This document shows positions 1 to 13,334 of a DNA stretch of 32,964 bases, piece by piece; position 1 is the stretch's first letter; each line of letters opens with the position of its first letter. The DNA lies in contig CALMRD010000408.1 of assembly GCA_937871625.1 (NCBI GenBank), positions 1 to 32,964 on the forward strand, read 5' to 3'. The notes below the pieces were generated by a model. It was not told the DNA's origin and made no database searches. It saw nothing but the letters and a program-made list of their open reading frames with translations. The position numbers and the translations under genes were made by a program. This stretch comes from an uncultured Bacteroidales bacterium (GTDB lineage Bacteria; Bacteroidota; Bacteroidia; Bacteroidales; VadinHA17).

Positions 1-2927
1 AGATAATCCACGAGATTGGCACTCTGATCAAGCTTTAGTTTTTTTCTGAGACGATACCTGCTGATCTCAACGCCGCGTATTGAAATGTTCATCAGGGGAG
101 CAATCTCTTTTGTAGTAACATTCATCCTCAGGTAACTGCAGAGTCTCAATTCACCCGGGGTAAGTTCAGGATGAAGGTTTCTGAGGCGGGAGTGGAATTC
201 CTGATGGACTTCATCAAAATAACGGTCAAAGACCTCCCAGCTCTTTTCATTTTGTATATCCCGGTCTATCTTACGGCTGATTTTTTTCAGATCAGCTACC
301 ACAGACTCATTCTTGGCATTCTGTATCAGGACTGACAGCTCCTGCTTAAGGGAGTTCAGGAATTTATTCTTCTGTATGATGTGATAGGCAGCCGTGGTGA
401 GCTCCTTGTTCTTATGGTTCATCTCAGACTGCAGCCTCTCGTTTTTCAGCTGCATCACCTCCGCCTCTGCAGCCAGTTTCTGCTCCTCAAGGGTCTGCTC
501 TGTCTTCTTGAATGCATTTATCTGCCTGTTCTTCTCCTGTAACCTTACCCTCTCTATTCTTCTCAGATAGAAATATGCTGCAGTCAGAATGATCCCGGAC
601 AACAACAGAAAATATAGTATCAGCGCCTTGTAGGATCTGGCAAAGGGAGGTTCTACAGTGAAGCAAAAACTATCCTCAGTGGTGATATTGCCGTATATGT
701 TTCTCGCTTTCACCTCAAAACAGTAATCTCCTTCGTGCAGATTGGTGTACTCTTTACTGTTTGCCGTTGTCCAGTCGGACCAGTTATCATCAAAATTCAT
801 CAGTCGATAACTGTATTCAATGTGTCCGGCATTTTCCATATCCGGGGAGTTGAACCTGAAGGAGATATTGTTCCAGGAGTAGGGCAATGCAAACCGGTCA
901 TTGATCTCGCGCTCATCCAGATGTGAGTTGCCGGAGAAATAGTATAACGAGTCCTTACGCTTTGAGGAGATGGTTACACTGTTTATGTAAACATGCCTCT
1001 CATCGAAATAATTCTTGTAGATCGATGGGTCATAATGAACCAGTCCCTTCTGTGTACCTATGAATATATTGGCCGGATCCTGGATAAAAATATTGTCAAA
1101 CGGTGAAACACGTGTGTCGTTAAGGTCCAGAAACGGAGTCGATATATTGGTATAGGTTCCATCTTCCAGCAGCCTGAAGACCCCCATTCCCTCACTGGCT
1201 GAATACCATAAATTGCGGTTGTGGTCTTCCTTCAGGAAATATATCAGCCTGAAGTCACCAAAGAAATCATTCAGCTCTTCAGGTTTAAAGAAAAGCTCTT
1301 GCTGCTCATCATACTGGTAAATGCCCCGGGTGGTTGAGATGAAAAAATCACCTGATCTGGCATGCAGAATGTAAGGCAACTCCTCGGGCAGGTTGCTGGT
1401 GCCCCTGTATTCCTTAAAAAGGATAACACTGTCAAGGCTTTCATTGAGTTGAATATGGAAGAGTCCAAGATATCCGTGGCTCATCCACAGCCAGTGGTCA
1501 TCTCTCAGTATCAGATCCTTTGAGGAGACATCAAACCCCTGAACCCTGTTTCTGAACTTCCATCTTCCATCCCTCTCCTTTTCAAAGATTATCAATCCGT
1601 CATATGTGCCACTGAGCAGCAGGTTGTCATGACCCGGAACTGCATTGAAGTTCCAGACACCCCTGCTGTTTGTAAGCTTCGTGGCTTTTGTTCCGTCAAT
1701 TGCGTATGCCCCGTTGTGATGTCCGCAAAGCAGTTGTCCGCCTGTTACCGTAAGATTCCAGACCTGCCCTTCCATCCCTTCAACCAGGTCATACTCAATA
1801 TTGATATGACTTCTGAGTTTGTCAAGTTCCTTTGTAAAGAGACCCTGGTTGGTGCCTATATAGAACCTGTTCCCATGAATAGCAGTTGCATAGGTTGCTG
1901 CTATATTAAAATTGTCATTTATAACAGATGTCGGGAGACTTGATTTAAGAAAATCAATCCCGATGTCAAGTCCAAGCCAGACATTATCCTGGCGATCCAA
2001 AAACAGTGACAGGACTGTGTTATTCTGCAAGCCGTTGGATCTGCTCAAATGTTCCTGGATTTCTCCTTTCTCATTTACCACAAACAGTCCGCTCTTGATC
2101 GTTCCGAACAGATAGGTGTTATTGTGAACAGATCCGCAATAGAGTTTGTATTTCTTCAGCTCCCCGGAAATTTCCGTTTCCCAGGGGTGCATGGTCTGAC
2201 CTGAGAGCACAAACAACCCATTGTTCATTGTTCCCACCAGAAGGTCGTTCGCATTTGCCGGAGTAAGTGATTGTATCTCATCCCTGGTGAACAGAAGATC
2301 ATCCGCAATGGTCTGCAGGCTGTCATCAACCAGCATCCTCAGTCCCACTCCGATCTCAACGACATAATAATTATTGTTGACATAGAAGGAGTTGCCAAAC
2401 CTCTCCCTGGGCGTGATAACATGAATTATATTGTTCTTATAGATTAAGATTGATTCGAAACTCTGAAAAACGACACCGAACCTGGTCTGGTAGATGTTCC
2501 ATACATCATCAAAATTCCTGGCATTTTCAGGGATAAGATGATTCAGGGAACTATAACTGGTTCCTGTTCCGGCAGATCTTTCAAGAACTCCTATTTCATT
2601 ATATGCACCGACATATAACCTGTTATCAGAACCGAATGCCAGTGACCTTACAATCGAATTATTGGATACAGGAAATGTCTCCCACTCTTCCCCGTCAAAC
2701 CTCAGTATGCCGTTATTGTTGGCAACGTAGATATTACCCTGCTCATCATCAACGATATTCCAGTTCTGAGTGCCCCCCCTGTATTCACTTCTGCCTATAT
2801 TCCAAATTTCCGGAACACCGATCGATTTAAACTGGCCGGAGAGGCTGAGCGTTTGAAATATAGCCAGCACTAAAATGATTCTCTTCCAGTTATTGAGCAA
2901 CATGGCTGTAGATGATTGAACTGTCAT
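1..2927 (-). CDS. Membrane-tethered transcriptional regulator (beta-propeller / Y_Y_Y / TM / coiled coil / LuxR-type HTH), truncated by the left window edge
   Basis: My own minus-strand translation is open from ATG at 2927 (alternative ATG at 2903) to position 1: MTVQSSTAMLLNNWKRIILVLAIFQTLSLSGQFKSIGVPEIWNIGRSEYRGGTQNW... with a Y_Y_Y-like EYSYRLMNFDDNWSDWTTANSKEYTNLHEGDYCFEVKARN, a TM segment, a coiled coil and C-terminal LTPGELRLCSYLRMNVTTKEIAPLMNISIRGVEISRYRLRKKL. Collinear with the protein at 9773-12679. Missing from the ORF track because no stop lies inside the window. Confidence 0.9.
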   Translation of the reverse strand, partial: MTVQSSTAMLLNNWKRIILVLAIFQTLSLSGQFKSIGVPEIWNIGRSEYRGGTQNWNIVDDEQGNIYVANNNGILRFDGEEWETFPVSNNSIVRSLAFGSDNRLYVGAYNEIGVLERSAGTGTSYSSLNHLIPENARNFDDVWNIYQTRFGVVFQSFESILIYKNNIIHVITPRERFGNSFYVNNNYYVVEIGVGLRMLVDDSLQTIADDLLFTRDEIQSLTPANANDLLVGTMNNGLFVLSGQTMHPWETEISGELKKYKLYCGSVHNNTYLFGTIKSGLFVVNEKGEIQEHLSRSNGLQNNTVLSLFLDRQDNVWLGLDIGIDFLKSSLPTSVINDNFNIAATYATAIHGNRFYIGTNQGLFTKELDKLRSHINIEYDLVEGMEGQVWNLTVTGGQLLCGHHNGAYAIDGTKATKLTNSRGVWNFNAVPGHDNLLLSGTYDGLIIFEKERDGRWKFRNRVQGFDVSSKDLILRDDHWLWMSHGYLGLFHIQLNESLDSVILFKEYRGTSNLPEELPYILHARSGDFFISTTRGIYQYDEQQELFFKPEELNDFFGDFRLIYFLKEDHNRNLWYSASEGMGVFRLLEDGTYTNISTPFLDLNDTRVSPFDNIFIQDPANIFIGTQKGLVHYDPSIYKNYFDERHVYINSVTISSKRKDSLYYFSGNSHLDEREINDRFALPYSWNNISFRFNSPDMENAGHIEYSYRLMNFDDNWSDWTTANSKEYTNLHEGDYCFEVKARNIYGNITTEDSFCFTVEPPFARSYKALILYFLLLSGIILTAAYFYLRRIERVRLQEKNRQINAFKKTEQTLEEQKLAAEAEVMQLKNERLQSEMNHKNKELTTAAYHIIQKNKFLNSLKQELSVLIQNAKNESVVADLKKISRKIDRDIQNEKSWEVFDRYFDEVHQEFHSRLRNLHPELTPGELRLCSYLRMNVTTKEIAPLMNISIRGVEISRYRLRKKLKLDQSANLVDY

Positions 2928-3015: not shown

Positions 3016-4773
3016 CTATTTATGGATACCCTCCACATGAGGTCCTGACAGTTCATCAAAGTAGAAGCTGTGAGTACCAGTCGCAACTGTCGGGTTGCAC
3101 ATAAGGCGCAATGTGTTGTAATAATCGTGATTGAATCTGTCATCTGCAACCACATTCGGGGCATACATATCACCTGTCCAGTCAAACCCTCCGGGAACAC
3201 CGTTGAAGTCGAATACGGCCACTTCCCATGTATCATCATTCTGGATTGTATATGTAATCTCCGTTCCTGTTTTCCATGGCTCTGCCGGATCTGAATTCTC
3301 AAGCTTGAGAAGTATTACATCTCCTGCCTTGCCACGTATCATTACCTTGAACACCTGCTGCAGCCTCAGGTCAAATCTGAACCCTGCCGGCAGCCTGATA
3401 TATGCGTTGGCATACTGGTTGTCAGTCCTTGAGTAATGCGCAACCTTTGCAGACTTGTTGGGATATTCCTTTTCAGGATTGTCAACAGTGTTCAGGGCGC
3501 AGTTTTCAGCCAGAAGCGGGAATACCTGCACCTCGCTCAGATCATTGTAAACGATCATCATGTCAAGGAGGAATTCCACGTAAGCTGAGTTATTATTGGC
3601 CAGGACTACCTGCTTCGTACCGGTGAGTATTCCGAGACTGGAGTTGATCTTGGCTGTAACGGTATAGGTGCCTTTACGCATGTAGACATGACTCACCACC
3701 TCATCTTTGCCCCCGGTGACCTCATCACTGCCGTCGCCGAAGTTCCAGGTTATGCCTGTAACACTCTGTCCGTCAGGTATTGAATAATCAGCTACCGAAC
3801 ATGACACTTCATTGTCAGTCCCTTCAGTGGCACTTACGGTATAGGTGATTGTAGGACGTTCATACCCTTTCGGGATCAGAAAGTAATGCCACATCGTCCA
3901 GCTTTCGTAGGCACTGTAGCAGGTAAGTTCAAGGAGGTTCTCCGATACCTGAACAATACGGTATTTGTTGTCTTTGGCCCCTACGTCCAGTCCCGGATGA
4001 ATAGGCTTGGCACTGTTGATGGTAATATAATAAGTTCCGCCCTCTTCCACGATGGACCAGTTTCCGAAGGTGGGAGTGACATAGTCAACATCCCAGTCGT
4101 CCTTGTTCAGCCTCGGGTTCAGATATACTGAAGCCAGGGCCGGGTCATCCTTCATGTATCCCTTGACATAGCTGACACCCTTATTGTCATATTTCACAAC
4201 AAAATCAGTGAGTATGAACGTCAGTTCATCGTCATATGCTCCTGTTCCGCTCTTGACATAAGGATCGGCAGACCACCACTCCAGGCCGTTTCCGAGCCCG
4301 TTGGCGTCGCCCACTCCAAGGTGTCCCTTGGTGCCTGCATCCAGAACCCATGTTTTTCCTTCAGCGGCATCAACACCACCGGTAAGGTTGACATATACCG
4401 GGTCGGTGAAGATGGAGAAGTCGGTCTCAGTCTGCGTCAGCGTTTTGATAATAGTAGCTGTGCCGCCGCGGGTGACAAGGGTAAGCTTCACGCTGTAGTC
4501 TCCGGGCATCGGATACCTGACAACATTTGACTTGCCGCTTCCCTTGGTTCCGTTACCGAAATCCCATGAGGCGATGCCGGTAACAGCCGAGGTGTTCGTA
4601 ATCACAAAGTTGAAAGCGTCACTTCCTGGCGCAATTGAAAAATCAAGCTGGTCAGCCGTCGGTGCTTCACCGATATCGGGTTTATCTGCCAGCTGCGGTT
4701 CACAGGCAGTTATCATCAGCAATAATGCCAGTACGCCTGCAAGTCTGGTTATATGTTTATACATTTTCATCAT
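3016..4773 (-). CDS. PKD-domain surface lipoprotein (SusE/F-position glycan-binding protein)
   Basis: 585 aa; lipobox signal MYKHITRLAGVLALLLMITAC; two PKD-like repeats (SWDFGNG..YPMPGDYSVKLTL and TWNFGDGSDEV..YMRKGTYTVTAKI); C-terminal beta-sandwich-like region; directly downstream of susD. Confidence 0.85.
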   Translation of the reverse strand: MMKMYKHITRLAGVLALLLMITACEPQLADKPDIGEAPTADQLDFSIAPGSDAFNFVITNTSAVTGIASWDFGNGTKGSGKSNVVRYPMPGDYSVKLTLVTRGGTATIIKTLTQTETDFSIFTDPVYVNLTGGVDAAEGKTWVLDAGTKGHLGVGDANGLGNGLEWWSADPYVKSGTGAYDDELTFILTDFVVKYDNKGVSYVKGYMKDDPALASVYLNPRLNKDDWDVDYVTPTFGNWSIVEEGGTYYITINSAKPIHPGLDVGAKDNKYRIVQVSENLLELTCYSAYESWTMWHYFLIPKGYERPTITYTVSATEGTDNEVSCSVADYSIPDGQSVTGITWNFGDGSDEVTGGKDEVVSHVYMRKGTYTVTAKINSSLGILTGTKQVVLANNNSAYVEFLLDMMIVYNDLSEVQVFPLLAENCALNTVDNPEKEYPNKSAKVAHYSRTDNQYANAYIRLPAGFRFDLRLQQVFKVMIRGKAGDVILLKLENSDPAEPWKTGTEITYTIQNDDTWEVAVFDFNGVPGGFDWTGDMYAPNVVADDRFNHDYYNTLRLMCNPTVATGTHSFYFDELSGPHVEGIHK

Positions 4774-4792: not shown

Positions 4793-6403
4793 TTATAAAC
4801 CTGCGTAGGCCGGAACCATCTGCTTGAGCACGCCTGCGTTCATATTCCTGATCTCGCTGGCAGGGATGGGGAACATACCCCAGGAGTTAGCCTTGAAGGT
4901 GCGGTTTCCGAAGTCACCGGCGTTGGGTGTGCCCGAAGGAACAACGAAGCTTGCATTGACCATCTGCTCAGAATAAGTCAGACCTCTTCTGAGGAGATCC
5001 CACTTTCTCAGGCCCTCGCCTCCAAATTCCACACGTCTTTCCTGGTAGATATCATCAAGGGTTATCGTTACTTTGGCTGCTGCCTCACCCAGTGCCCTGG
5101 TCCTGACCCTGTTATAGTAGCCAGCGGCCTTGCCCGGCGCGTCGGCCAGCCATACCTCTGCTGCCATCAGCAGCACATCGGCAAACCTTATATCCATATG
5201 GTTGCGGGGAAAGTTATGACTCGGATCGCCGCCCGAACCCTGGTAGTCGGCACGCGCCATATACTTCTTGTTAAAGTAGCCGGTGTTCATGAAAGCCCGG
5301 TTATAATCGGTCAGGAGCGTCTCGGCATCATACAGGGTGACATATTTCCTGGGGTCACCTGGTTCAAATGCATCAGCCAGGCTCCATGTGGGAATGGAAA
5401 ATGACCATCCCGGGAAAACAGTGGCGTCACCCTGCGGGTTACGTATACTGATCCACACCGATGAGAAGTTGCCGTTGATGTTCCAGCCTCCCCAGTCGCC
5501 TGACTTTGCCTTGTCTGAATACTGAATCTCAAGAACTGCTTCAGCGTTGTTCTGGTTATCCCAGTCGAAGAGGTCGGCATAGTCAGGTACAAGTGAATAC
5601 TGCTCGCTAAGAATTACCTGGTCGAGAGCCGACTGCACCCAGGCCTTGTTGATGGCTGTGGTGCCATTGCTCCACTGTTCTGCCGTAAGACCCAGTCCGC
5701 TTATGGCACTCATACCAGTGTGATAGAGGTAAATACGTGCCGCAAGTGCCTGAGCCGCCCCTTTTGACACACGTCCTTTTTCGGCTGCAGGAATGGTTAC
5801 CGGCAGGGCATCGACGGCATCAAGAAGATCTGAAGCTATCAGGGCAAAGATCTCATTCGGAGTGCTCTGTTCAACATTCTTGTACTCTTCCACATCGGGG
5901 AGCACCTCTGTTATCTTGGGCACCCATCCGAAATGACGGACCAGGTCCCAGTAGAAGTAAGCCCTCAGGAACTTGACCTCACCCTCAAAACGTGTCTTGA
6001 GGCCATCACTCTCCCAGGCGATATCCTCCTGCTTCTGCAGATAGAGGTTTGCCCTGTAGATACCTGAGTAACAACGGTTCCACAGATCAGATGAGGAGTT
6101 GTTCTCCGGCTCCATCTTGAACATCTCCATATCCTGCCACTGGCTCATGTCCGAAGCATCGGATCCGCCGCAGAAAGCATCGTCGGACCATATATCCGAC
6201 ATTGTGGGTACGAACTGCCAGTTTTGTACGGAGTATGCATCATACACCGCCGCGACAGCGAGGAAGGCATCTCCCTCGGTCTTGTAGTAGTTGGCTTCCA
6301 CCTGGCCGGTCTTGGGCTCAAGCTCAAGGAATTCCTGGGAACACGATGAGCCCGCAACCATCAAAGCCAGAAAGAAGAGACCATATAATATTGACTTTTT
6401 CAT
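4793..6403 (-). CDS. susD: SusD/RagB family nutrient-binding outer membrane lipoprotein
   Basis: Lipoprotein signal MKKSILYGLFFLALMVAGSSC, SusD-like C-terminal NHMDIRFADVLLMAAEVWL..YYNRVRTRALG..ERRVEFGGEGLRKWDLLRRG. The track ORF begins at 6436, but MKKSIL (6403) is the likely start and removes the overlap with susC. Confidence 0.95.
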   Translation of the reverse strand: MKKSILYGLFFLALMVAGSSCSQEFLELEPKTGQVEANYYKTEGDAFLAVAAVYDAYSVQNWQFVPTMSDIWSDDAFCGGSDASDMSQWQDMEMFKMEPENNSSSDLWNRCYSGIYRANLYLQKQEDIAWESDGLKTRFEGEVKFLRAYFYWDLVRHFGWVPKITEVLPDVEEYKNVEQSTPNEIFALIASDLLDAVDALPVTIPAAEKGRVSKGAAQALAARIYLYHTGMSAISGLGLTAEQWSNGTTAINKAWVQSALDQVILSEQYSLVPDYADLFDWDNQNNAEAVLEIQYSDKAKSGDWGGWNINGNFSSVWISIRNPQGDATVFPGWSFSIPTWSLADAFEPGDPRKYVTLYDAETLLTDYNRAFMNTGYFNKKYMARADYQGSGGDPSHNFPRNHMDIRFADVLLMAAEVWLADAPGKAAGYYNRVRTRALGEAAAKVTITLDDIYQERRVEFGGEGLRKWDLLRRGLTYSEQMVNASFVVPSGTPNAGDFGNRTFKANSWGMFPIPASEIRNMNAGVLKQMVPAYAGL

Positions 6404-6422
6404 AGTTCTGTTGATTTGCATG

Positions 6423-9400
6423 TTAGAATGTAACACTGATACCGGTCATGATGGTACGGGCCTGCGGATAAATGCCGCGGTCAATACCGTTGTCAAATAC
6501 TCCACCTCCGATTTCCGGATCATAACCCTTGTACCTGGTGAATGTGTAGAGGTTCTCTGCAGAAACATAGAGACGCAGTTTGCTGATAGTTAATGCATCG
6601 GTTATGTTCTGGGGCAGTGTATAACCAAGTGTGATATTCCTCAGTCTGACAAAGCTGCCGTCCTGGATGTAGAAGTCGCTAACCGTCTTTCCGTTCAGGT
6701 TATTATCGACAAAGGTGACGCGCGGGTAGAAATCCGAGGTCCCTTCACCCGTCCAGCGGTTAAGCCATTCGGCATTGTAGTTGGTACCGTTCATGTCATA
6801 CCTCCTGGTGGCGCTGTATATCTCCTGTCCAAGAGCTGCGTAGAGGAACATGTTGAAGTCGAACCCGTACATCTCTGCGCTAAGGTTGAGACCACCGGTA
6901 AAATCGGGGAAGGGGCTTCCTATCTGAACCCTGTCGCCATCACTGATGGTGCCGTCCCTGTTCTCATCGACAAATTTTATGTCGCCGGGCTGGGCGTTGG
7001 GCTGGATCTTTGCTCCCGTGGTGCTTACGTAACTGTTGATCTCCTCCTGGGTCTGGAAGATACCGTCTGTCTTTACTCCGTAGAAGACTCCCATGGGGGT
7101 GCCTATCTCTGCATAGATTATGCCGCTTTGGCCGAATCCGCCGTCACCACCCTGAAGCCTTTTCTCGGCATTCTGAATGTCAAGGACCTTACTCTTGTTA
7201 AAGGCGCCGTTAATGGATGCACTCAGATAGAGTTCACCAAGCTGCTTGCGGTAGCTGATCTCAGCCTCGATACCTGAGTTCTGAACCGAACCGCCGTTGA
7301 TGATCGGGGCAGAGTTGCCAACGAGCATGGGTACCGGTGCCGTCACGAGCCAGTCTTTGGTCTTCTTGATATAATAGTCAAGAGTGACGGTAACACTTGA
7401 ATTCAGAGTCGAAAGGTCGATACCGAAGTTTGTCTGTTCCGAGGTCTCCCACTTCAATGACGGGTTGGCTATCCTTGTAGGCTGCGTACCGTTGTACTGG
7501 GTCTTGCTGTCACCGAAATAATAGATATTCTGGTTACCGATGACCGAGGTATAGCCGAAGTCACCTATACTCTCATTACCGTTCTGGCCCCAGCTGGCCC
7601 TTAACTTAAGCATATCAACAACATTGGTAAGACCGCTCATGAAATCCTCCCTTGATATGACCCAGCCTATCGAGGCCGAGGGGAAGTATCCGTACTTGTT
7701 CTCGTCGCCAAACCGCGACGAGCCGTCACGCCTGATGGTGGCCGTCAGCATGTAGCGGTCCATCAGGTCATAGTTGACACGGGCAAAGAGTGATGAAACG
7801 GTATGCTCGGAATAACCACCACCTGCATTGGCACTCTCAGGATCAGTGGCGTTATCAAGGTATGAATGCTCAAAGTCGTCAAAAATGAGATCGTTCTTGG
7901 AACCCCACAGATTTTCATACATATCCTTGAATGCGGTTGTGCCCGCCATAAGCGTCAGGTTGTTAACACCAAACGACTTTGAATAGGTAAGTACATTCTC
8001 GAAGTTCCACCTTGAATAGATGTCAATCGACTTATTGGCTCGGTCAATTATGCTGAAATGCATGGCATCAAGGTAATACTCGGGAGTATAGGAGTCATTA
8101 TTCACAATGGCATATTCACCGCCGAATGATGTCCGGAATACAAGTCCTTCGAGCGCTCTGGCAATCTTGCCAAAATCAAATTCCCCGTAGAGGTTACCTA
8201 TTAACTTATAGGTCCTGGTTTTGGAGTTATTGTAACTGATCATTGCAACAGGGTTGGTGATCTCCTGCAGACCTATGCCGTAGGCTTCGGGTGTTGCCCA
8301 TGAGCCGTCGGAGAACATTACCGGTACTATCGGGGGCATGTTCAGGGCCTGGTTAAGTCCCAGCCCGAAGCGGTCGTTGGTGGCAATACCCCGGCTGGTG
8401 ATACCGACAAGGTTGACGTTGCCGCCCAGCTTGAAGAACCCGAATGTACCGGCTGCGTTGAGCCTGTAACCGATTTTCTCAAAGTTGGATTTCCCTTTGG
8501 CCACTATACCATCCTGGCTGAAGTAATTAATAGAGGATGAGTATTCCAGCTTGTCGCTCCCTCCCATGAAAGAGAGAGAATGGTTTTGCTTGGGTGCGTT
8601 GTAATAGAACATCTCATCCTGCCAGTCTGTGTCAGCGGTGAAGCCCTCTGTCTGTGCCGCCGTGAACTTTGGTCCCAGACCTCCGTTGATCGATGCCTCA
8701 TTGGTAAGCATAATATACTCCTTCGCATTAAGCATGGGGATCTTCTTCCACGGGTTCTGGAAGCCGTAGTAACCGTCGTATGATACTGTAAGCCTGGTAT
8801 CGGTACGTCCGGTCTTTGTTGTGATGAGTACTACACCGTTTGCTCCGCGGGCACCGTAGATAGCAGCCGAGGCAGCATCCTTCAGCACCTCGATGGATTC
8901 AATGTCGCCGGCATTCAGGAAATCGGTTCCTGCACCGCTCATCGGGAGCCCGTCAATGATGTAGAGAGGCTCGGCATCACCGTTGGTGCCGGCACCCCTG
9001 ATGCGAACAGAGATCTGCGAGCCGGGCTGACCTGAGTTGGCAGTGATGACCACCCCTGCAGTCTTTCCCTGCAGAGCCTGGGTGACACGCATGTCTGCCG
9101 CTTTGCGCAGATCTTCGCCGTCAACCTTTGCGATAGCTCCTGTGACCAGGCTCTTTTTCTGCGTGCCGTATCCCACAACAACTATCTCGTCAATCAGCTC
9201 CATATCGGAAGCCATAACTATATCATATGTGGCGCTCTCTGTCACCACAATCTCCCGCGTCTTCATCCCCACAAAGGAGAAGACAATGGTAGAGTTCACA
9301 GGTACATTGTCGATACTGTAGTACCCGTTGATGTCAGTCAAGGTCCCGGTTGTCGTGCCCTTCACGAAAACACTCAATCCGGGAACAGGCTGACCGTCGT

Positions 9401-9494
9401 CAGCTGACGTTACAACCCCCTTTATCTGCAGCCCCTGGGCATTCAGCCCCAGGGTAAATGCAATGAATAAAAGGGTCATGATTGTCTGTTTCAT
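6423..9494 (-). CDS. susC: SusC/RagA family TonB-linked outer membrane transporter
   Basis: 1023 aa; signal peptide, carboxypeptidase-regulatory-like domain, plug motifs (VVVGYGTQKKSLVTGAI, GDIESIEVLKDAASAAIYGARGANGVVLITTK), C-terminal aromatic beta-strand (..TIMTGISVTF). Confidence 0.97.
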   Translation of the reverse strand: MKQTIMTLLFIAFTLGLNAQGLQIKGVVTSADDGQPVPGLSVFVKGTTTGTLTDINGYYSIDNVPVNSTIVFSFVGMKTREIVVTESATYDIVMASDMELIDEIVVVGYGTQKKSLVTGAIAKVDGEDLRKAADMRVTQALQGKTAGVVITANSGQPGSQISVRIRGAGTNGDAEPLYIIDGLPMSGAGTDFLNAGDIESIEVLKDAASAAIYGARGANGVVLITTKTGRTDTRLTVSYDGYYGFQNPWKKIPMLNAKEYIMLTNEASINGGLGPKFTAAQTEGFTADTDWQDEMFYYNAPKQNHSLSFMGGSDKLEYSSSINYFSQDGIVAKGKSNFEKIGYRLNAAGTFGFFKLGGNVNLVGITSRGIATNDRFGLGLNQALNMPPIVPVMFSDGSWATPEAYGIGLQEITNPVAMISYNNSKTRTYKLIGNLYGEFDFGKIARALEGLVFRTSFGGEYAIVNNDSYTPEYYLDAMHFSIIDRANKSIDIYSRWNFENVLTYSKSFGVNNLTLMAGTTAFKDMYENLWGSKNDLIFDDFEHSYLDNATDPESANAGGGYSEHTVSSLFARVNYDLMDRYMLTATIRRDGSSRFGDENKYGYFPSASIGWVISREDFMSGLTNVVDMLKLRASWGQNGNESIGDFGYTSVIGNQNIYYFGDSKTQYNGTQPTRIANPSLKWETSEQTNFGIDLSTLNSSVTVTLDYYIKKTKDWLVTAPVPMLVGNSAPIINGGSVQNSGIEAEISYRKQLGELYLSASINGAFNKSKVLDIQNAEKRLQGGDGGFGQSGIIYAEIGTPMGVFYGVKTDGIFQTQEEINSYVSTTGAKIQPNAQPGDIKFVDENRDGTISDGDRVQIGSPFPDFTGGLNLSAEMYGFDFNMFLYAALGQEIYSATRRYDMNGTNYNAEWLNRWTGEGTSDFYPRVTFVDNNLNGKTVSDFYIQDGSFVRLRNITLGYTLPQNITDALTISKLRLYVSAENLYTFTRYKGYDPEIGGGVFDNGIDRGIYPQARTIMTGISVTF

Positions 9495-9569: not shown

Positions 9570-9620
9570 AATGTGTAAATATACAATACACGTTATACAT
9601 AAGCACAGATAACAATACAT

Positions 9621-9651
9621 CAAAAATACTACAACAGTCATTGTCAGTCAA
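9621..9651 (-). promoter_or_regulatory. Predicted Bacteroidota-type promoter for susC
   Basis: Minus strand TTG (9651-9649), N20, TATTTTTG (9628-9621), matching the Bacteroidota -33/-7 pattern TTG-N19-21-TAnnTTTG. Confidence 0.5.
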
Positions 9652-9662
9652 CACATCAATTG

Positions 9663-9693
9663 CAGATAGCTATCTGATATATATATCTGATAT
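9663..9693. promoter_or_regulatory. Candidate operator upstream of susC: 14-bp palindrome plus 10-bp direct repeat
   Basis: CAGATAGCTATCTG (9663-9676) is a perfect palindrome; TATCTGATAT occurs at 9671-9680 and again at 9684-9693. Confidence 0.5.
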
Positions 9694-9772
9694 TAAACTT
9701 ACTACACAAATGTAATTAGTATGATGACTTACATCTAAGGATAAATGAAGATACTACAAATGCGATTTTTTC

Positions 9773-12679
9773 CTACAAATTAAGAATATGGGTGGTAAGA
9801 TTTGTTTCCCTGCTAATACCCATCTTTTTTCTGACCCGGTACCTGCATATCTCCACTCCGCGGACAGAGATATTCATAAGGGGAGCTATCTCTTTGGTGG
9901 TGATGTTCATCTTAAGGAAAGCACAGAGTCTCAACTCTGTAGGCGTAAGGGTCGGGTATTTGTCCTTGAGGCGGTTAAGAAACTCCTCGTGCACTTCATC
10001 AAATGCTCTTGCGAACACTTCCATCTGGTTATTGTTGTCAACCTCCCTGTTTATCCTGGAATAGAGATCACTTATCCTGCTCCCGGTTGTATTATCCCTG
10101 CAGATTGATTTAATGATAGTGAGTTCCTCCTTCAGTGTAAGCAGAAACTCATTTTTTCTGACCAGGTTCATGGCTTCATTTGCCAGCTCCTTGTCGCGTT
10201 GTATCATCTCTGCCCTGAGCTTCTCGTTGCGAATTCTGATTATCTCCTTTTCTGCTTCAAGAGCCTGCCTGATGTACTCCTGCTCCTTCTCCGCATAAAT
10301 GCGCTGACTGTTAATTCGCTCCCTTCTCTTTGACAGCTCAATGCGCCAGTTGACGAATCTTACAAGAAAGAGAACGAGGCTCAGCAACGCAATTATGTAG
10401 CCCAGATAAGCTGCAGGCGACTTGTACCACGGGTGTTCAATCACAAACTCCACTCCGTCAGGCAGACTCTCTCTCCCCAGCATATCTCTTGCCTTTACCC
10501 TGAAGGTATACCTTCCGTCAGGCAGGTTGGAATACTCCTTGGTGGAAGACCTGTCCCATGCTGACCATTTATCATCAAATCCCTCCAGCATGCAACTGTA
10601 TTCTGTATTGCCGGCGTTGGCGTAAAGAGGCGACGTGAAGGTGAACCTGATAACATTATTGTGATACCTGAAGCTGCAGGGCTTATCCTGCCTGTAATCC
10701 TTGCCATTACCTCTGCCAAAGTAAAATACCGTATCCTCATGTAGTGCCTCAGCCCTGACAATATAAGCTGAAAACTCCTGATAACCTGATGAAGTATGTG
10801 TGGCCGAATAGTGTGCAAAACCGTCTTCCGTTCCAAAAAAGAGATGTTCTGACGAATATGAATAGACCGATTCAAAACCGATGATGAACTTACCGGTGAG
10901 AGGCAGGAATGGTGTTGCAAGATGCTTGTAGGTACTATCTTCCTGTAACCTGAACACCCCCGCCCTGTTTTCGGAAACATACCAGATATTCCCGTACTGG
11001 TCCTCCATAAGATAGGAGAACCCCACAACCGGACTGAGGAGCCTGTTGAGTCGGACAGATCTTGTAAACCTGTCCTCTTCAGGCAGATACTCGAAAAGTC
11101 CGGCCTCGGACAGCACAACTATCTTATCCCTTATCCTGCTGATGACAAGGCCATAGTCTGAAGGCAGGCCATCATCTGAGTTATAGAACCTGTAAGATGA
11201 GACAGTATCCGGCCTGCTGCCCAGGCGAATCCTGTAGATACCCTTGAAGCCATGGCTCATCCAGAGGTCTCCAGCCTCATCCTCCTCAAATACCCGGAAT
11301 GATTCGCCGAAGCCCTCTATTCTTCCTGAGAACTTCCAGGTTCCCTCCTGCCACCTGAAAAGTATGATGCCACTGAAGGTCCCCCCTGCCAGGTAACCCG
11401 GGTGGCTGCTCAACTCGTGATATTTCCACCCGCCCGGAATATTGCTGATGAGCCTGGCCCGGTCGCCCTCTACAATAAAGGTTCCCTTATTATGGCCACA
11501 GAAAAGGATATCCCTGTGAACACTCAGGTGCCAGACCTGACCGTCAGTACCCTCGATCATCCTGTAATCCTCGTCCGCACCCACTCTCCCCCATGATTTC
11601 ACGTACAGGCCCTGGTTGGTCCCGAGGTAAATATTCCCGTCATGAATAACGGTGGCATAGCCGGCGCCAAAACCCTCCGAGTTCTGTATGAAGGTGACAG
11701 GAGAATTAACTGTCAGATAATCAATGCCTTTGTTCAGGAGAAGCCAGAGATTACCTGCAAGGTCTGAAAAGACATTCAGTATCGTGTTGTCCTGCAATCC
11801 CCTTTTTTTATTAATCTGCTGGATTATGTTTCCCTGACTGTCGACGATCATCAAGCCGTTGAGTATTGTACCGATTGCATAGTAGTCATCGTGCAGGCTG
11901 ACTGCACTGAATATCTGGTCGCGTATCAGCATCATGCTGGCAGGCACGTTCCATCTCACAAGCTCCCGGCCGTCATAGATGAAAAGTCCCCGGTCGGGTG
12001 TACAGACAAGGATCTCGTTGTCATCACCCTTCGGCATCAGGGAGATGATCTCCTCACCTTCCAGAATAGCGCAACCCTCAATCTCTGCCAGCGCGGTGCC
12101 GTCATATTCCATCAACCCGTTCTCAGCATCGTTGAAAATGAGTCTGCCACGTACAGTAAATGAATTCTGAAATCTCGAGGGAGCCTTGAGAACGGCGACA
12201 GGACTTCCCTCTTTGAAAAAGTAGGCGGCATCGTAGGTCTGAAAAACAATTTTATCCCTGTACTTGCAAATATGCCATACATCGTCAAAATTCCGGTTCT
12301 CTTCAGGAATTAGATCACGGAGGGATTTGAATGTCATCTGCCCGCTGGCTGACCAGACCATTTTTCCCAGGTCATTATAGGCGCCGATGTAAATATCTCC
12401 CGGCTCGTCAATGTATACTGACCTTACCATGGACCGGTTTGGCATGCTGTATATCTGCCAGTGCTCGCCGTCAAAGACCAGGAGTCCGTCATTGTTGGCA
12501 AAGTACATGAACCCCCGTCCGTCCTGTGCGGCGCTCCAGTTCTGGGTGCCGCCGCGGTAGTCATCCTTCGTGAAATTGCGGATGTATGGAGTGCCGATAT
12601 TCTTAATCTCCCCGGCAGCCACCGCTCCTATCAGGAAGAGAAGCTGCAACACCGCTGCAAATCGTCGTACCACGGTCAC
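9773..12679 (-). CDS. Membrane-tethered transcriptional regulator (beta-propeller / Y_Y_Y / TM / coiled coil / LuxR-type HTH)
   Basis: 968 aa; N-terminal signal; propeller-like repeats; Y_Y_Y motif (EYSCMLEGFDDKWSAWDRSSTKEYSNLPDGRYTFRVKARD); TM (AAYLGYIIALLSLVLFLV); C-terminal HTH (LTPTELRLCAFLKMNITTKEIAPLMNISVRGVEICRYRVRKKMGI). Directly upstream of susC. Confidence 0.92.
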   Translation of the reverse strand: MTVVRRFAAVLQLLFLIGAVAAGEIKNIGTPYIRNFTKDDYRGGTQNWSAAQDGRGFMYFANNDGLLVFDGEHWQIYSMPNRSMVRSVYIDEPGDIYIGAYNDLGKMVWSASGQMTFKSLRDLIPEENRNFDDVWHICKYRDKIVFQTYDAAYFFKEGSPVAVLKAPSRFQNSFTVRGRLIFNDAENGLMEYDGTALAEIEGCAILEGEEIISLMPKGDDNEILVCTPDRGLFIYDGRELVRWNVPASMMLIRDQIFSAVSLHDDYYAIGTILNGLMIVDSQGNIIQQINKKRGLQDNTILNVFSDLAGNLWLLLNKGIDYLTVNSPVTFIQNSEGFGAGYATVIHDGNIYLGTNQGLYVKSWGRVGADEDYRMIEGTDGQVWHLSVHRDILFCGHNKGTFIVEGDRARLISNIPGGWKYHELSSHPGYLAGGTFSGIILFRWQEGTWKFSGRIEGFGESFRVFEEDEAGDLWMSHGFKGIYRIRLGSRPDTVSSYRFYNSDDGLPSDYGLVISRIRDKIVVLSEAGLFEYLPEEDRFTRSVRLNRLLSPVVGFSYLMEDQYGNIWYVSENRAGVFRLQEDSTYKHLATPFLPLTGKFIIGFESVYSYSSEHLFFGTEDGFAHYSATHTSSGYQEFSAYIVRAEALHEDTVFYFGRGNGKDYRQDKPCSFRYHNNVIRFTFTSPLYANAGNTEYSCMLEGFDDKWSAWDRSSTKEYSNLPDGRYTFRVKARDMLGRESLPDGVEFVIEHPWYKSPAAYLGYIIALLSLVLFLVRFVNWRIELSKRRERINSQRIYAEKEQEYIRQALEAEKEIIRIRNEKLRAEMIQRDKELANEAMNLVRKNEFLLTLKEELTIIKSICRDNTTGSRISDLYSRINREVDNNNQMEVFARAFDEVHEEFLNRLKDKYPTLTPTELRLCAFLKMNITTKEIAPLMNISVRGVEICRYRVRKKMGISRETNLTTHILNL

Positions 12680-12758: not shown

Positions 12759-12806
12759 CCATGATCCGGAATTACCCGGCATGTAACCTAAACATTGTTG
12801 CGCAAA

Positions 12807-13334
12807 ATGGTCAAAGTTACCAACAACAGGATCCCTCATGAATTTTTTGTAACCAAAGGTTCAGGATGCAGTGAATATGCCCTCCACCCCGGATCATACC
12901 ATATGGCACTGTACGATGCAGGCATCGCCGAATACAACATCATGAACTACTCGTCAGTGCTGCCGGCTTCGGCGAAGCTGCTGACTCTTGATGAGATCGA
13001 CATGCCGCCATACGGCTCCGAATTGTGTACCATCATGGCAGTGGCCAACGGGTATTACGGTGAGCACATTTCAGCGGGAATCATATTTGCATGGATGTAT
13101 ACTGACGAGACCTGTGAGGAGAAGGTAGGAGGGCTGGTCTGTGAACTGGCAGGTTACTTTGACATGGAAGCTCTTGAGGAGAGACTGTATACGGTACTGA
13201 ATGACCTTCATGACAGGACCTTCTCACAGTACTATCTCGGTGAGCCTGCTGTCATCAGGGAGTCACTGACGATAGATAAGAGATACGGAACAGCCCTGGT
13301 GGCTCTTTGCTTTGTAAATTTTACCCAGGGATGA
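12807..13334 (+). CDS. Pyruvoyl-dependent arginine decarboxylase (PvlArgDC)
   Basis: IPHEFFVTKGSGCSEYALHPGSYHMALYDAGIAEYNIMNYSSVLPASAKLL resembles the family pattern, including the Ser-Ser self-cleavage site (xSSxLP). The track ORF starts at a TTG (12795); ATG at 12807 is the more likely start. Confidence 0.85.
   Translation: MVKVTNNRIPHEFFVTKGSGCSEYALHPGSYHMALYDAGIAEYNIMNYSSVLPASAKLLTLDEIDMPPYGSELCTIMAVANGYYGEHISAGIIFAWMYTDETCEEKVGGLVCELAGYFDMEALEERLYTVLNDLHDRTFSQYYLGEPAVIRESLTIDKRYGTALVALCFVNFTQG

Follow-up and report, generated by a model that had tools for sequence, protein, structure and literature searches.

Membrane-tethered one-component regulators with a NarL/LuxR-type helix-turn-helix (HTH) domain are common in the nutrient-uptake loci of Bacteroidota. 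In the literature searched, the closest precedents for the locus described here were SusR and HTCS site predictions only, and no described binding site was found for the propeller/Y_Y_Y/LuxR-HTH class, whose sites the initial annotation of this DNA had rightly called poorly characterised. For the SusR-like regulators of Bacteroides, Ravcheev et al. 2013 (PMC3878776) predicted direct repeats separated by 67 or 77 bp, which they read as six or seven helical turns, and for the HTCS sites direct repeats about 21 bp apart. NarL sites consist of heptamers in a 7-2-7 arrangement, inverted and 2 bp apart (PMC4549865).

The locus lies in a window of 32,964 nucleotides (the whole stretch of DNA analysed) from an uncultured Bacteroidales bacterium. 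As in the SusR-like systems, its regulator is a membrane protein with a periplasmic sensor and a C-terminal HTH, and two of its half-sites (S2 and S3, see below) lie 64–68 bp or six turns apart, as SusR-like direct repeats do, which is a likeness of spacing; in contrast to those systems, there are six half-sites with extra spacings of 11 and 22 bp, and the regulator is of the Reg_prop/Y_Y_Y type (PMC3878776). With the HTCS of Bacteroides PULs it shares a related Reg_prop/Y_Y_Y sensor and direct-repeat sites, whereas the spacing is 11/22/66 bp and the HTH is of the NarL/LuxR type; Pfam and NCBIfam searches of the regulator returned none of the histidine kinase, receiver and AraC domains that define an HTCS. 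The seven-base half-sites and the HTH fold are those of NarL/FixJ/LuxR response regulators, from which the locus differs in its direct repeats at 11 bp and in a regulator that is membrane-tethered and in which no receiver was found.

The regulator and its neighbouring genes

On the minus strand the regulator gene is followed by a 278-bp spacer, susC, susD and the gene of a PKD protein, and this gene order recurs in about 25 genomes.

9773–12679, minus strand: regulator, with Reg_prop propeller, Y_Y_Y domain, transmembrane helix, coiled coil and C-terminal HTH (Pfam, hydropathy, AlphaFold)
6423–9494, minus strand: susC-like TonB-dependent transporter, the putative target (NCBIfam TIGR04056, 880 bits)
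4793–6436, minus strand: susD, downstream of susC
3016–4773, minus strand: PKD protein, downstream of susD

The regulator (968 aa) has a periplasmic propeller part and, by hydropathy, a transmembrane segment at about residues 755–776, followed by a long helix, a coiled coil and the NarL/LuxR-type HTH. Its description as a membrane-tethered LuxR-HTH protein holds. The C-terminus scored 20.2 bits with Pfam GerE, slightly below the cut-off of 23.5. Its AlphaFold model matched the C-terminal domain of DosR with a TM-score (target) of 0.79 and an rmsd of 1.4 (probability 1.0, E about 0.1), and isolated DosR/VraR-like HTH domains were matched at 1.3–1.5 Å over about 60 residues, with the same probability and E values. 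By this modelled four-helix domain, the regulator belongs to the NarL/FixJ/LuxR HTH type. The NCBIfam model of the BT3442 family gave a weak C-terminal match (21 bits against a cut-off of 940), and the sensor matched the solved HTCS sensors 3v9f and 4a2l by sequence.

Two further features of the window were observed. Another regulator of this family, the second in the window (9–2849, minus strand; 36% identical), stands after the PKD gene and reaches the contig end, and a pyruvoyl-dependent arginine decarboxylase (12795–13334, plus strand) adjoins NrfH/NrfA-like cytochromes and a GH35 enzyme.

A phased heptamer array in the regulator-susC spacer

The initial annotation had proposed that the spacer holds a candidate operator of the adjacent regulator. 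This proposal stands, with a phased array of TGWWGTA heptamers in place of the palindrome it had named. Our preferred reading, to which we give a probability of about 0.85, is that six TGWWGTA half-sites form an operator which would be read by the HTH of the adjacent regulator and would activate susC-susD-PKD. The elements of the array are listed below, with their conservation in the four closest species (the window plus L032–L034).

9752–9758, minus strand: S1, TGTAGTA, about 181–187 bp upstream of the predicted start; 7/7 kept
9730–9736, minus strand: S2, AGATGTA (6/7 match), 22 bp after S1
9687–9691, minus strand: U box, ATCAG, positionally conserved, inside the 9684–9693 repeat copy and 22 bp ahead of the S3 slot
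9663–9669, minus strand: S3 slot, degenerate CTATCTG, placed by phase; it coincides with the right arm of the palindrome
9652–9658, minus strand: S4, TGATGTG, 11 bp after the S3 slot; 7/7 kept
9627–9636, minus strand: S5, TGTAGTA (9627–9633) overlapped by TGTTGTA (9630–9636); 10/10 kept
9616–9622, minus strand: S6, TGATGTA, 11 bp after S5
9576–9583, minus strand: -7 box TATATTTA (TAnnTTTR), 39 bp after S6; 8/8 kept

In these four species S1, S2, S4, S5, S6 and the -7 box were 100% identical, against 70% for the whole spacer. S4 and S5 are 25 bp apart in the window, whose clade carries a 3-bp insertion between them, and the overlapping TGTTGTA keeps the 22-bp option. Two side observations were made here. 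The block 9718–9741, which includes S2, was identical at 23 of 24 bases in the four species, more than S2 alone would explain, and an additional exact TGTAGTA (9700–9706, minus strand), off the conserved phase, was seen in the window only.

Taken together, 34 regulator-susC spacers were compared, and redundancy-thinned sets of 19, 20 or 24 were used for counts. Spacers whose regulators are at least 60% identical align on a TGTAGTA near the regulator stop and then on TGATGTATT...TGATGTATTTTTGAAGTA. In 19 thinned spacers 76 exact copies of TGWWGTA were counted, against 5.2 expected and a maximum of 13 in 300 shuffles, and pairs at 11, 22 and 33 bp numbered 14, 12 and 13, against about zero in shuffles. 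A motif-agnostic self-similarity scan of 128 spacing combinations peaked at (11,22), with a score of 29.5 (shuffle mean 21.6, maximum 22.8). The heptamers are all in a single orientation and follow the layout S1-21/22-S2-65/68-S3-11-S4-22/23-S5-11-S6 (bp), which puts the half-sites near 0, 2, 8, 9, 11 and 12 helical turns. Spacings of 22, 66, 11, 22 and 11 bp place all of them on the same side of the helix. The 7-2-7 inverted-heptamer layout of NarL was ruled out, given heptamers in one orientation and 11, 22 or 66 bp apart.

The 20 exact heptamers found upstream of S3 all fell at 65–68 or 87–89 bp, and none elsewhere in 1431 positions; the S1 band (86–90 bp before S3) was occupied in 17 of 20 thinned loci and the S2 band (64–68 bp) in 15 of 20. 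Most other loci have TGATGTA or TGATGAA as S3, and the S4 column is nearly invariant, with S1, S2 and S6 absent or weak in some loci. Comparison of the loci thus shows, at the level of sequence, that the heptamer and its phasing are strongly conserved. If the best single 11-bp pair is taken as anchor, it is sometimes the proximal pair, and several distant family members have only one strong pair; hence support for the six-site layout is strongest in the branch of the window itself, where regulators are at least 39% identical.

Comparison also shows a fixed distance between the array and a promoter element. The TAnnTTTR box recurs 38–40 bp after S6: of 24 thinned loci, 19 carry a match of at least 5/6 at 39±1 bp, where the background is 1.1. 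In Bacteroidota, TAnnTTTG is documented as the -7 box of sigma-A promoters (PMC7366714, PMC9723704); Flavobacterium has it at positions -12 to -5 (PMC9723704). By this -7 box at a fixed place, the promoter is of the sigma-A type of Bacteroidota, and from the position of the box at 9576–9583 the susC start is predicted near 9571. Relative to this predicted start, S6 lies at -45 to -51, S5 at -56 to -62, S4 at -81 to -87 and the S3 slot at -92 to -98.

A further reading adds to the array a site formed by the ATCAG box and by TATCTG in the S3 slot, which would be bound by another protein or would serve, in this lineage, as an alternative S3 half-site. In 8 of 20 thinned loci ATCAG stood between 24 and 15 bp ahead of S3, against 0–1 in other segments, and TATCTG is kept 6/6 in the window's clade; against this, ATCAG is missing in many loci and TATCTG is confined to that one clade. 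We regard such an additional site as possible but rather doubtful, and it would be compatible with the six-half-site operator.

Association of the array with the regulator and proposed mechanism

The array was kept in loci whose SusC is not orthologous, being 32% (L041) or 42–43% (L044, L045, L047) identical to that of the window, which indicates that the array goes with the regulator and not with the target. A strict 18-mer scan of 198 genomes of the order gave 11 matches, against 4 with a reversed-pattern control. Five of the ten matches outside this locus adjoin a regulator of the same family, and one (L144) adjoins susC only, with no regulator in the wider surrounding stretch. Two (L106, L109) had no relevant neighbour, and L104 and L105 were set aside as apparent chance matches. 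In these two loci the 18-mer falls within susD-type coding sequence, on codons for ADVLLMYAEA, which is a trap for motif scans. Relatives of the second regulator (L085, L020) carry TGATGTA at 0, 11 and 33 bp in their downstream spacer, before a large non-susC ORF (1068 aa in L085), that is, identical spacing at another kind of target.

The heptamer was also compared with the recognition helix in 94 nearly non-redundant regulators, a callable pair being needed. Where the helix was VE(I/V/A)(S/C/G/T)R, all 45 regulators with a callable pair had TGWWGTA; where it was VENNR, all six such regulators had TGAGKTT. The Fisher value of 5.6e-8 overstates independence, since in the tree the TGAGKTT/VENNR regulators form a single clade within the other group; the helix switch is thus one event, not many. 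The position changed from I to N, aligned to NarL, presumably falls at a base-contacting residue, which we take as a lead. Among regulators of the same helix class, 23 of 68 had no strong pair within 330 bp downstream, and their targets may lie elsewhere.

These 23, together with the fact that binding by the adjacent regulator is a conclusion from comparison, leave some room for a reading in which the array is real and read by another co-travelling protein, such as a global sugar regulator. This is very unlikely. The S5-S6 box TGTAGTATTTTTGATGTA has no other 0-mismatch match in its own 3.48-Mb genome, which would be unusual for a global regulator. The five 2-mismatch matches all lie away from any relative of the regulator, of susC and of susD. 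The heptamer tracks the recognition-helix class and the array persists beside non-orthologous susC genes; the matches of the blind scan cluster at the regulator family, and the second-regulator loci carry the matching spacing before a gene other than susC.

For the six-half-site operator, we infer the following course of events. The adjacent membrane-tethered regulator would read the heptamers directly through its NarL/LuxR-type HTH domains, with one dimer for each 11-bp pair, S3-S4 and S5-S6. The S5-S6 pair, centred about 51–53 bp upstream of the predicted start, a usual place for an activator to contact RNA polymerase, would make this contact, and either a second dimer or a short loop would reach S1-S2, six turns farther up. 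When the sensor binds an oligosaccharide in the periplasm, susC-susD-PKD would be switched on.

To judge from the papers searched, the six-site layout, the heptamer, the promoter phase and the helix correspondence are new for this regulator class. With the heptamer, the spacing rule, the promoter position and the helix-heptamer correspondence, the question of where and how such sensors bind is reduced to a few short experiments, and the array rule lets targets be predicted across many genomes. A more tentative proposal, which we consider somewhat less probable than its opposite, is that these features form a transferable grammar of the whole family, in which fixed-phase half-sites over about 12 turns would gather several membrane-tethered dimers in one looped complex at the inner membrane, and two or three residues of the recognition helix would determine the heptamer letters (a change from VEIS to VENN switching TGATGTA to TGAGGTT). 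If this were true, motifs and targets of uncharacterised regulators would be predictable from sequence.

The CAGATA/TATCTG palindrome and the earlier promoter call

The strings named in the initial annotation are all present in the window.

9663–9676: perfect 14-bp palindrome CAGATAGCTATCTG
9671–9680 and 9684–9693: direct repeat TATCTGATAT, the copies separated by ATA
9606–9611: further copy of CAGATA

The palindrome and its flanking CAGATA had been taken as the operator of the regulator, centred 55 bp upstream of the start of a TTGACT/TATTTT promoter. The palindrome is indeed perfect, CAGATANNTATCTG has no second copy across the 3.48-Mb genome, the four closest species retain its right arm TATCTG in full (6/6), and L032 carries the related CAGATTTATCTG. 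Conservation in orthologous loci, named in the annotation itself as the refuting test, contradicts it. The left arm keeps only 2 of 6 bases in those species, the palindrome is absent from more distant orthologs and from the alignment of spacers with regulators at least 60% identical, and in 19 thinned orthologous spacers CAGATA was found only four times, never phased and with no enrichment. Moreover, dinucleotide shuffling of the 278-bp spacer produces a perfect 14-bp palindrome by chance in 3.9% of cases. The CAGATA at 9606 keeps 3 of 6 bases and is of little weight, because the window holds 31 copies of CAGATA against 18.4 expected. Across the whole window, six perfect 14-bp palindromes were counted, against 2.3 expected from shuffles.

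The promoter on which this proposal depended fared no better. TTGACT-17-TATTTT is present on the minus strand (9651–9623), but the segment called as promoter (9621–9651) is the S5-S6 half-site pair; the supposed -33 hexamer keeps 2/6 bases and the half-sites 21/21. The call was dropped in favour of the -7 box phased 39 bp after S6. Measured from that conserved box, the centre of the palindrome lies at about -98 instead of -55. A palindromic operator is largely refuted by this comparison of sequences and has very little probability left. What survives of the proposed operator pieces is that TATCTG fills the S3 slot and that the 9684–9693 copy holds the ATCAG box. With the right arm kept 6/6 and the left arm 2/6, the window's clade has a degenerate S3 whose letters happen to make half a palindrome. 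The array analysis also corrects a promoter call that would put the start site wrongly.

Equally improbable is that TGWWGTATTWTTGWWGTA represents a duplicated promoter with tandem -7 boxes, the repeats reflecting sigma factor binding: TATTTTTG within S5-S6 is a perfect TAnnTTTG, but it is part of the heptamer repeat unit, S1 and S2 are single heptamers without TTTG, the second helix class keeps the 11-bp spacing with TGAGKTT, a sequence that is no -7 box, and a separate -7 box stands at the fixed 39 bp.
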